Source of the DNA: Bacteroidales bacterium
Lineage (GTDB): Bacteria > Bacteroidota > Bacteroidia > Bacteroidales > UBA10428
DNA: 64,000 nt
NCBI GenBank assembly: GCA_016935615.1
Contig: JAFGQO010000075.1
Span: 1 to 64,000 of the forward strand
Direction: 5' to 3'
The notes beneath the pieces were generated by a model that worked only from the letters and a program-made list of their open reading frames with translations, did no database searches and was not told where the DNA came from. The position numbers and the translations under genes were made by a program. Below are positions 34,783 to 37,555 of the stretch, piece after piece (positions within the stretch are counted from its first letter, which is position 1; each line of letters begins with the position of its first letter).

Positions 34783-35220
34783 ATGAAAACATTAACTAAC
34801 ATCCGGGCTCCTGAAAAACACGTGAAAGTTTTGTTGATGATTGTATTCCTGGTTTTTCAGGTAACATTGAAAGCTTCTGAACTTCTTCCTGAGAAAAAGG
34901 AAGTTGTTGAAACGAAAGAAACGGTTGAAGATTGGATGTTGGATCTGTCAACCTGGGCAAAAAACACCAATTCATTTGTACTCACTGAAGAAACTGAAAA
35001 GGAACTCGAAATTGAAGATTGGATGGTAAATCCGAAAGATGAAATCTGGAATAACAGAGACGAAGAAGAACGTAAAATTGAAGAATGGATGTTTGATGTC
35101 AACCACTGTTACTGGGACGATTTTGCCACAAAAGAAAAAGAAATGCCCATTGAAAAATGGATGGTGAATATATCAGACTGGTCAAATGATGAAGTTCTTT
35201 TAAGTACAGTAGTTCACTAA
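34783..35220 (+). CDS. Secreted protein with four E-x-W-M repeats
   Basis: Hydrophobic N-terminus then VEDWMLDLSTW / IEDWMVNPKDEIW / IEEWMFDVNHCYW / IEKWMVNISDW. Confidence 0.75.
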   Translation: MKTLTNIRAPEKHVKVLLMIVFLVFQVTLKASELLPEKKEVVETKETVEDWMLDLSTWAKNTNSFVLTEETEKELEIEDWMVNPKDEIWNNRDEEERKIEEWMFDVNHCYWDDFATKEKEMPIEKWMVNISDWSNDEVLLSTVVH

Positions 35221-35252: not shown

Positions 35253-35279
35253 CCCCGGTAAAAGCTGCCGGGGTTTTTT
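35253..35279 (+). terminator. Rho-independent terminator between convergent genes
   Basis: CCCCGG TAAAAGCTG CCGGGG TTTTTT. Confidence 0.8.
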
Positions 35280-35610
35280 ATTTTGTATTGTACCCCAGAT
35301 CAGACAGAATCTTCTTTATCTTCTCCCGGAAATCTCCCTGAATGATTATATCTCCGGCTTTCACCGAACCACCTGTTCCGCATTTGGTTTTCAGTAACTT
35401 TCCAAGATCTTTCAGGTCATTATCCTTGCCTGTAAATCCTGACACAAGTGTTACTATCTTCCCTTTCCGATGCTTGCAGTCAGTCGTTATTTTAAGTATT
35501 TGCTCTTCGGGAGAAAGGGTCTCTGATTCCTCAATTCTGTCTGTTTTATATTGATAATCAGGATCTGTTGAAAAAACCACACCTAACCTGTCTTTCCAAT
35601 CTTTCATCAT
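35278..35610 (-). CDS. SUI1/YciH-family translation initiation factor
   Basis: KGKIVTLVSGFTGKDNDLKDLGKLLKTKCGTGGSVKAGDIIIQGDFREKIKKILSDLGY. Confidence 0.92.
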   Translation of the reverse strand: MMKDWKDRLGVVFSTDPDYQYKTDRIEESETLSPEEQILKITTDCKHRKGKIVTLVSGFTGKDNDLKDLGKLLKTKCGTGGSVKAGDIIIQGDFREKIKKILSDLGYNTK

Positions 35611-35717: not shown

Positions 35718-36137
35718 ATGAAAAACCTACTCATCACTTACAATAGTAAAACAGGGAAAACAAAAAAATATGCCGAAGAAATAAACAACTATATTACAAG
35801 TAAAGGAGTCAAAACGGCATTAATTTCCATTGATGAATTCGATATAGCCCTTGTTAAAAATGCGGAGGGAATTCTGTTTGGAGCCTGGACAAACGGATTG
35901 ATGATCTTTCTGCAGCATCCTGACAAACCCTGGGTAAAATTTGCAAAAGATCTTCCTGAAATAAAAGATAAAAAAGTCGGGTTGTTTACAACCTATTTGC
36001 TGGCCACGGGAAGCATGTTTAAAAAGATGAAAATCCACCTTGGTGGAAAGATCTCTGAAAGCATGTTCGAATTGAAATCGAAAAAAGGCAAATTATCAGA
36101 TCATGATAAAGTGCTTCTGGATAATTTTATTAAATAA
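35718..36137 (+). CDS. Flavodoxin-domain protein
   Basis: MKNLLITYNSKTGKTKKYAEEI; GILFGAWTNGLM; KKVGLFTTYLLATGSM. Confidence 0.82.
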   Translation: MKNLLITYNSKTGKTKKYAEEINNYITSKGVKTALISIDEFDIALVKNAEGILFGAWTNGLMIFLQHPDKPWVKFAKDLPEIKDKKVGLFTTYLLATGSMFKKMKIHLGGKISESMFELKSKKGKLSDHDKVLLDNFIK

Positions 36138-36144
36138 ATCTGCC

Positions 36145-36321
36145 ATGTATGAATTGATTTTAACAATTGGGATTGTTGCTTACTCATTGATCCTGATCTC
36201 GTTCCTTACCGGTATGAAACTAATTAAAGTAAAATACAAAGTGCACAAGATAATCGGTATCCTTGGCTTTTCCTGTGCTACAGTTCACGCTTTGTTCATG
36301 CTATATTTTAACCTCTTTTAA
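36145..36321 (+). CDS. Small two-helix membrane protein with a His pair
   Basis: MYELILTIGIVAYSLILISFLTGMKLIKVKYKVHKIIGILGFSCATVHALFMLYFNLF; begins 8 nt after the flavodoxin stop. Confidence 0.68.
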   Translation: MYELILTIGIVAYSLILISFLTGMKLIKVKYKVHKIIGILGFSCATVHALFMLYFNLF

Positions 36322-36332
36322 TACATACTAAT

Positions 36333-36677
36333 ATGAAGACGAACAAGCTCTTATTATTCATTCTGCTGGTATTATTGCCAATGATCGCAATTGCTCATCC
36401 CCCCAAAAAAGTGACTTTGTCCTATGAAAAAGAAACAGGTCTGCTTACCGTCGCTGCAATGCATCCGGTTAAAGATGTCAATGACCATTACATCATTACT
36501 CTTGAAGTTACGGTAAATGGTGAAACAGTTAAAACCGCCGAGTACAAATCCCAAACTTCACCAGAAAGTCAGGACAAAACGATAGAACTTCCTGATCTTG
36601 CAACAGGAGATGAAGTAACTGTAAAGGCTACCTGTAATAAGTTTGGCTCAAAAACTCAATCTTTAACTATTGAATAA
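36333..36677 (+). CDS. Secreted superoxide-reductase-like (SORL fold) small protein
   Basis: Signal peptide; MHPVKDVNDHYIITLEVTVNG ... GDEVTVKATCNKFGS resembles SOR motif order HP..HYI...CNxHG. Confidence 0.55.
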   Translation: MKTNKLLLFILLVLLPMIAIAHPPKKVTLSYEKETGLLTVAAMHPVKDVNDHYIITLEVTVNGETVKTAEYKSQTSPESQDKTIELPDLATGDEVTVKATCNKFGSKTQSLTIE

Positions 36678-36716: not shown

Positions 36717-36758
36717 CTGATTGCAGCATGATTTATACATGTGCTGCAATCAGATTTT
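36717..36758. terminator. Bidirectional terminator between convergent genes
   Basis: CTGATTGCAGCATG...CATGTGCTGCAATCAG followed by T run. Confidence 0.78.
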
Positions 36759-37555
36759 TATTTTTTATACAAAAAATCGCCAATCTTTTTAATCCTCATC
36801 ATCTCTTCCTCACTCAAAGGGCCCTGATCAAGCACCGTCAGATTCTCTCTCATCTGTTTTAGTGTTGACGGCCCGCTCATACAAACATCAACATGCGGAT
36901 TTGACAAGACAAAACGATAACATTCCGCAGCTGTAAGTGCACGTTCACCTTCCGGCATTCTTTTTTGTTTCAGCAACTGACCCCATCGTGTAGCTGTAAA
37001 AGCAACCACTCCCATCCTTTTTTTCTCTTTCAAATGAGGAAATACATCTGTTTCAGCTCCCCTATTGACAGCATTGTACCGAACATGAAAAACATCCAGA
37101 TCTCCCTGTTCATCGAGCCTCGGAAAGAGTTTTCGGTTATGACCCGTCACCCCGACAAATCGTGTAATTCCCTTCTCTTTCAGCTTTAGTGCACCATTAA
37201 GAACATTTTTACCGGGTTTGTTAGAATAATAACCAAGCAACATTACATCGATACAATCCACACCAAGTGCTTTCAGGCTTTTATACATATAATACCTGTT
37301 GATGAACGGATCGTGTCCATAACTATGCATTGCAATGACCAGTTTGTCACGGTGACCGTTCTTCACAATATTCCTGACAGCCTTTTTCATTTCTTTCGAC
37401 CGGCCACGAATAAAAGTATTCCAGAGAAAATAATTACAACCTCGTTCAAAAGCCTCTTCAAACGCTTCCGCCGGAGCCCTATAACTTGCGGAAACACCCA
37501 AACGACCAACCTTAAGGCCTGTTTTACCCAGACTAACCGGATTGTTAAAGTTCAT
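36758..37555 (-). CDS. Aldo/keto reductase
   Basis: LGKTGLKVGRLGVSASY, LKALGVDCIDVMLLGYY, HVRYNAVNRGAE, VVAFTATRWGQL. Confidence 0.88.
   Translation of the reverse strand: MNFNNPVSLGKTGLKVGRLGVSASYRAPAEAFEEAFERGCNYFLWNTFIRGRSKEMKKAVRNIVKNGHRDKLVIAMHSYGHDPFINRYYMYKSLKALGVDCIDVMLLGYYSNKPGKNVLNGALKLKEKGITRFVGVTGHNRKLFPRLDEQGDLDVFHVRYNAVNRGAETDVFPHLKEKKRMGVVAFTATRWGQLLKQKRMPEGERALTAAECYRFVLSNPHVDVCMSGPSTLKQMRENLTVLDQGPLSEEEMMRIKKIGDFLYKK

Follow-up and report, generated by a model that had tools for sequence, protein, structure and literature searches.

The window, a stretch of 64,000 nucleotides of Bacteroidales DNA, contained three open reading frames on the forward strand at 35718-36137, 36145-36321, and 36333-36677, encoding proteins of 139, 58, and 114 amino acids (aa). 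Gaps of 7 nt (first and second genes) and 11 nt (second and third genes) separated them, in agreement with the three tightly packed, co-directional genes of the original prediction. The start of the 58-aa gene at 36145 was backed by orthologues with the same first residue; a longer in-frame start at 36103 had no such backing. The strong terminator proposed at 36717 was likewise recovered, as a 13-bp stem (36717-36729/36741-36753) followed by a T-run, and its value of -20.4 kcal/mol (z = -5.4) was matched by 0 of 200 shuffles. The features of the locus were as follows:

35718-36137, forward strand: short flavodoxin, candidate cytosolic electron donor (three Pfam models above cut-off)
36145-36321, forward strand: 58-aa two-helix membrane hairpin, proposed half-cytochrome b (AlphaFold2, loop charges, half-match to Ferric_reduct)
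36244-36246, forward strand: His34 codon, proposed heme ligand at the inside end of helix 2 (invariant, 16/16)
36286-36288, forward strand: His48 codon, proposed heme ligand 14 residues past His34, HX13H (invariant, 16/16)
36333-36677, forward strand: 114-aa secreted protein of the superoxide reductase (SOR) fold (AlphaFold2 sandwich, hhalign to canonical SORs)
36333-36395, forward strand: signal peptide of 21 aa, predicted cleavage A|HPP (from sequence; Ala/Ser before the cleavage in 76/76)
36396-36398, forward strand: His22 codon, predicted mature residue 1 and possible ligand (His in 65/76)
36462-36464, forward strand: His44 codon, aligns with the HP histidine of SORs (76/76; profile alignment)
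36486-36488, forward strand: His52 codon, aligns with the HWI/HHI histidine of SORs (76/76; profile alignment)
36633-36635, forward strand: Cys101 codon, aligns with the axial cysteine of SORs (75/76; profile alignment)
36642-36644, forward strand: Phe104 codon, at the position of the SOR CNxHG histidine (never His in 76 relatives)
36717-36766, forward strand: intrinsic terminator closing the operon (13-bp stem plus T-run)

A conserved upstream promoter motif was also sought, and the alignment of three upstream regions was uninformative. A SUI1-like gene of 110 aa (35278-35610, reverse strand) diverges from the operon and likewise precedes the triplet in the two sister genomes. The product of 34783-35220 on the forward strand, 145 aa long and secreted by its looks, has four E-[DEK]-W-M-[LVF]-[DN]-type repeats, and no Pfam model scored above its cut-off; a similar repeat protein lay near the SUI1-like gene in both sister genomes (L043 1537-2076 and L003 172-333).

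The AlphaFold2 model of the 114-aa protein was a seven-stranded beta-sandwich (pLDDT 90.9). Its top ten Foldseek matches held SORs (4bff, 4d7p, 4bfj) and SoxZ at E values of about 2e-3, amid generic FnIII/Ig domains; fold alone does not decide between an SOR and a generic Ig-like protein, and profile-profile comparison does. Compared by hhalign with canonical lipoprotein-type SORs, the family of the 114-aa protein (group D) matched at 97.6-97.8%, with His44, His52, and Cys101 falling on SOR ligands, while reversed and column-shuffled control targets reached at most 3.2%. The SOR-related fold with an altered site that had been predicted from the sequence was supported by these matches. The window copy lay below all family cut-offs, scoring 17.2 of 61.9 bits against TIGR00332, with no PF01880 match among those listed and a weak match (0.005) to the desulfoferrodoxin iron-binding domain. 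The relatives scanned reached 13.8-20.5 of 22.2 bits, also below cut-off. Among library models, those of SoxZ matched the window copy best (3e-4 and 9e-4; 19.3 of 25 and 20.6 of 76 bits), and SoxZ membership was rejected, as these scores fell below cut-off and no Sox genes were seen among the open reading frames inspected. In sequence searches of the PDB, neither the single protein nor the family profile found anything meaningful.

Residues were counted in 76 distinct group-D proteins. His44, His52, and Gly105 were present in all 76, and Cys101 and Gln74 in 75. The fourth SOR ligand, the histidine of CNxHG, occurred in none of them, its position being held by Met in 31 and Phe in 27; its loss is therefore a family trait and no quirk of the window copy. 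The signal peptide, mature N-terminal His, HP, HYI, and CNKFG motifs originally read in the window copy were all present as described. Since Ala or Ser always precedes His22, signal peptidase would leave this residue as the first of the mature protein. His22 occurred in 65 of the 76 proteins, and the 11 others had mostly Thr, Asp, or Gln, which weakened the idea of an invariant N-terminal His ligand. Motif order and the common H-x-P are the grounds for putatively equating His22 with the first SOR histidine; the profile alignment, which starts at residue 42, does not reach it. Measured against the four His and one Cys of SORs, two His and the Cys were kept, the first His was kept in 65/76, and the fourth in 0/76. 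Strictly, with a ligand lost and scores below cut-off, the 114-aa protein is no SOR, but it is a member of the SOR superfamily and may act in a similar way.

The 58-aa protein was modeled by AlphaFold2 as a hairpin of two helices (residues 2-23 and 31-57; pLDDT 95.5). Both histidines lie within helix 31-57, and all 16 sequences aligned carry the HX13H-in-one-transmembrane-helix pattern of ferric reductases and cytochrome b. In both of these, such a spacing within a helix is well established as that of the two bis-His hemes. Gly23, His34, and His48 were invariant among the 16 hairpin relatives, with the two histidines exactly 14 residues apart in each. No Lys or Arg in this alignment fell outside the loop region, and the positive-inside rule accordingly places the loop on the cytosolic side. 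The Pfam model Ferric_reduct matched over half the domain at 17.9 of 28 bits (E 0.0034) in the window copy and with E 8.5e-5 in the L003 hairpin, both below cut-off. With this score and one His pair per 58-aa chain, the protein does not amount to a full ferric reductase/cytochrome b domain. A Foldseek search with so small a hairpin gave nothing meaningful. One HX13H helix per chain suggests that a homodimer would be needed for two hemes. The minimal cytochrome b half of the original prediction thus gained from the HX13H spacing, the well-modeled hairpin, and the weak match to half the Ferric_reduct domain, and from sequence and model a half-cytochrome b that dimerizes is plausible.

The conserved unit at this locus is the pair formed by the second and third genes, not the triplet. 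Among relatives of the 114-aa protein, the same triplet was found in L002 and L003, both of the window's genus; elsewhere in the order (L010-L014, L017, L019, and L020), only the hairpin gene lay beside the SOR-like gene. Run on 393 genomes of the order, a hairpin profile found 14 strong matches, 13 of which adjoin a SOR-fold gene; some of the 14 sat in the seed alignment, so that the search is a census and no blind test. The fourteenth match was an orphan hairpin of 65 aa with HX13H (G636; L087:1486-1683) that had no SOR-like neighbor. For comparison, a hairpin within 130 nt was looked for at 474 other genes of the fetched regions; 12 had one, and each time it was a hairpin already flanking a SOR-like gene. 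A hairpin lay upstream of the SOR-like gene in 17 of 79 group-D loci, three of which hold canonical SORs, and downstream, in reversed order, in 13 of 20 distinct loci of a second secreted family (group E). Synergistota hairpins were 67-72 aa long and very divergent, keeping little beyond the architecture and HX13H. Two members from the Desulfobacterota-type phylum of record L009 had a cytochrome b561-like gene in the hairpin's place; one of these exceeded the Pfam cut-off and the other fell just short of it. These differences in gene order and hairpin sequence, together with the substitute cytochrome, argue for functional coupling over an inherited neighborhood. The predicted conservation of the membrane protein together with the SOR-like protein holds across phyla, in the census of the order and again in Synergistota and group E. 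Most Synergistota members had no adjoining hairpin, and neither did two Bacteroidota members inside flexirubin clusters.

Other genes were seen around the SOR-like genes. Peroxiredoxin genes lay beside the SOR-like gene in several Synergistota, and a gene for a rubredoxin-domain protein lay beside the L104 copy. At L053:6640-7266, a 208-aa membrane protein with no Pfam match above cut-off is encoded directly 5' of the hairpin and SOR-like genes. In the Synergistota locus L109 (229-1836), the hairpin and SOR-like genes follow in series after genes for a protein with a molybdopterin oxidoreductase domain and a membrane protein of three helices.

The 139-aa product of the first gene is a flavodoxin, with three Pfam models above cut-off (Flavodoxin_3 33.6 bits, Flavodoxin_1 31.7, Flavodoxin_5 30.4), and its sequence contains a P-loop-like SKTGKT. 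It is not part of the conserved unit. The flavodoxin adjoined the pair only in three genomes, all of the window's genus, and a homologue with unrelated neighbors and no pair was found in six genomes, of which five belong to the window's genus and the sixth to a different genus of the family. The expectation that all three genes would be conserved together consequently failed for the triplet and stood for the pair.

Group D was found in 54 of 151 genomes in a sample of Synergistota and in several genomes of the phylum to which the deltaproteobacterial record L009 belongs. Within the window's order it was scattered, and among 396 genomes drawn across the window's phylum none had it except the window's own. 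A canonical SOR was encoded by 7 of 18 carriers or relatives tested, and none was found in the window genome. Group E (A4) is desulfoferrodoxin-like, with tested copies passing the Desulfoferrodox Pfam cut-off, and its profile matched that of group D at 97.6-98.5% by hhalign. Its site was a mirror image of that in group D, with the CNxHG His kept, the first His missing, and a mature start of N-K-[TS]. Desulfoferrodoxin domains were also seen in another setting, as C-terminal fusions to a membrane H+-pyrophosphatase (L028:10-1710 and L029:59-1423; H_PPase 507 and 401 bits and Desulfoferrodox 55 bits, both above cut-off).

The SOR-like gene was located inside a flexirubin-type cluster in six genomes of three families, in four of the six with a hairpin, and its position was directly after DarB and ahead of the FabZ-like, DarG, and DarH genes. 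These loci were L047, L061, L050, L052, L049, and L051, and curated models identified the clusters in the two of them that were scanned. In L049, FlxA scored 751 bits (cut-off 700); in L052, DarB scored 604 (cut-off 550), DarH 468 (cut-off 300), and the DarG family 164 (cut-off 70). A group-E pair adjoined similar flexirubin-type genes in genome G018. The passages retrieved from a published flexirubin cluster description name no such SOR-like gene (PMC3992019). In the window genome, no DarB match was found, and a general function as a flexirubin component was therefore rejected for it. The flexirubin link is an association in relatives and not a function at the window locus.

We consider the chances about even that the hairpin and the SOR-fold protein form a two-part redox module of the cell envelope, probably for defense against oxygen radicals. 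The model starts from the genes, operon layout, predicted folds, invariant residues, cross-phylum pairing, and topology signals described above, and the hemes, dimer, metal, direction of electron flow, and substrate are what we infer. In the inner membrane, each hairpin monomer would contribute one HX13H helix, and a homodimer would form a four-helix bundle that holds a bis-His b heme near each face of the membrane, two in all, as cytochrome b and ferric reductases do. The dimer could then pass single electrons from the cytosol to the periplasm. At the window locus, the co-directional flavodoxin would be their simplest donor, and a quinol or a different flavin donor may serve at other loci. 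The acceptor would be the secreted SOR-fold protein, with a metal, most likely iron, held by His44, His52, Cys101, and usually His22. In place of the lost fourth histidine, the free N-terminal amine may act as a ligand, in a manner resembling a histidine brace, an idea weakened by the 11 of 76 members without His22. The likeliest task would be the reduction of superoxide or related reactive oxygen species in the envelope, and the peroxiredoxin genes beside several Synergistota copies support a chemistry that forms peroxide.

An envelope redox module is suggested by the pairing, the HX13H hairpin, the relation to SORs, the conservation of ligands, the context of oxygen defense, and the precedents considered below. 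Against it stand the loss of a SOR ligand in 76/76 proteins and of His22 in 11/76, the many members without a hairpin, the SOR/Ig ambiguity of the Foldseek matches, the scores of the window copy below family cut-offs, and the place of the flavodoxin outside the conserved unit. The co-occurrence with flexirubin genes may also point to a role other than oxygen defense. A narrower proposal is put forward tentatively, its probability being rather less than even: that the half-cytochrome b dimer is a diheme wire dedicated to a SOR-fold metalloprotein with an N-terminal-amine ligand, and that two SOR-like lineages, each missing a different histidine, use the same type of wire in a widespread and undescribed system. 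Searches of the open-access literature for an SOR paired with a b-type hairpin, or for desulfoferrodoxin together with SoxZ, found none, which is weak evidence.

The conserved core could also belong to an electron carrier. Near-invariance is limited to His44, His52, and Cys101, the fourth site is mostly Met or Phe, and His22 is dispensable, a pattern that would suit a protein shuttling electrons between the hairpin and further redox enzymes of the envelope, with a 2His-Cys core binding copper as in cupredoxins or iron without open-site chemistry. A second reductase would moreover be partly redundant where a canonical SOR is encoded, as in the 7 of 18 tested. The cysteine, however, sits in the CN..G context of SORs with no cupredoxin motif, and the peroxiredoxin neighbors fit peroxide formation, so that a pure carrier seems unlikely to us. 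Electrons might instead run the other way, from an envelope substrate or superoxide oxidized by the SOR-fold protein through the hairpin to quinone or a cytosolic acceptor, or the pair might serve oxidations in pigment biosynthesis. CybB, a small diheme bundle, does oxidize periplasmic superoxide and reduce quinone (PMC11869295), and the position of the six SOR-like genes, four with a hairpin, directly after DarB would suit the pigment variant. Reverse flow is nonetheless improbable, given that the flavodoxin operon mate suits a source of reductant, the window genome has no DarB, and the hairpin has no invariant quinone-site residues beyond its two histidines.

The SoxZ models and SoxZ structures that stood among the best library matches (3e-4 and 9e-4, below cut-off) and top Foldseek matches raise the further alternative of a SoxZ-like or purely structural Ig-fold carrier that is metal-free and uses its histidines for another role. 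The near-absolute His44, His52, Cys101, and Gln74 over 76 proteins and the HX13H of the hairpin are hard to explain without cofactors, and no Sox genes were seen nearby, which makes a metal-free protein very improbable. SoxZ (PF08770, TIGR04490) shares a related Ig-like fold with the 114-aa protein and gave its best weak library match, but the conserved His/His/Cys set of the latter follows SORs; SoxZ is not known to have this set.

The proposed envelope redox module shares features with several known systems. The SOR/desulfoferrodoxin iron domain (PF01880) has the same fold class, the order HP...H[YW]I...CN..G, and, in some SORs, an export signal; the SOR classes of SORGOdb include a TAT-SOR (PMC3116461). 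The 114-aa family differs from it in the missing CNxHG His (76/76), a Sec-type signal followed by a His at the mature N-terminus, a heme-type hairpin as genetic partner, and scores below the curated cut-off. Group E is related by profile, secreted, and paired with a similar hairpin, whereas it keeps CNxHG, lacks the first His, has its hairpin downstream rather than upstream, and passes the Pfam cut-off in the copies tested. The hairpin shares HX13H in one transmembrane helix with the ferric reductase-like transmembrane domain (PF01794) and cytochrome b, but with two helices and one His pair per chain it would require a dimer, and its score is below cut-off. CybB resembles the proposed dimer as a small four-helix diheme membrane protein acting on periplasmic superoxide (PMC11869295); unlike it, CybB is a single chain, oxidizes superoxide to reduce quinone, and has no secreted SOR-fold partner. 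Secreted BcnA is linked genetically to the b-type membrane cytochrome b561 LcoA and protects the envelope against peroxyl radicals (PMC9113575), although BcnA is a lipocalin rather than a SOR fold, and LcoA is a full cytochrome b561 rather than a hairpin. A designed diheme membrane cytochrome has also been reduced by flavodoxin reductase (PMC10120048).

If the envelope redox module is correct, it would reveal a route of electron supply to a periplasmic SOR-type protein, and the hairpin would be among the smallest natural transmembrane electron wires proposed. It would also add an altered metal site of the SOR type, shared by Bacteroidota, Synergistota, and a Desulfobacterota-type phylum, for which two very small genes suffice for testing, and it would tie SOR-type chemistry to flexirubin pigment clusters. 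Two of these clusters contained a further gene, for a radical-SAM protein, between the acyltransferase and DarA-like genes (L052:10733-12088 and L050:2444-3802), and the L052 copy scored 433.6 bits against TIGR04072, above the cut-off of 360 bits for this 'ladder' lipid-biosynthesis model.
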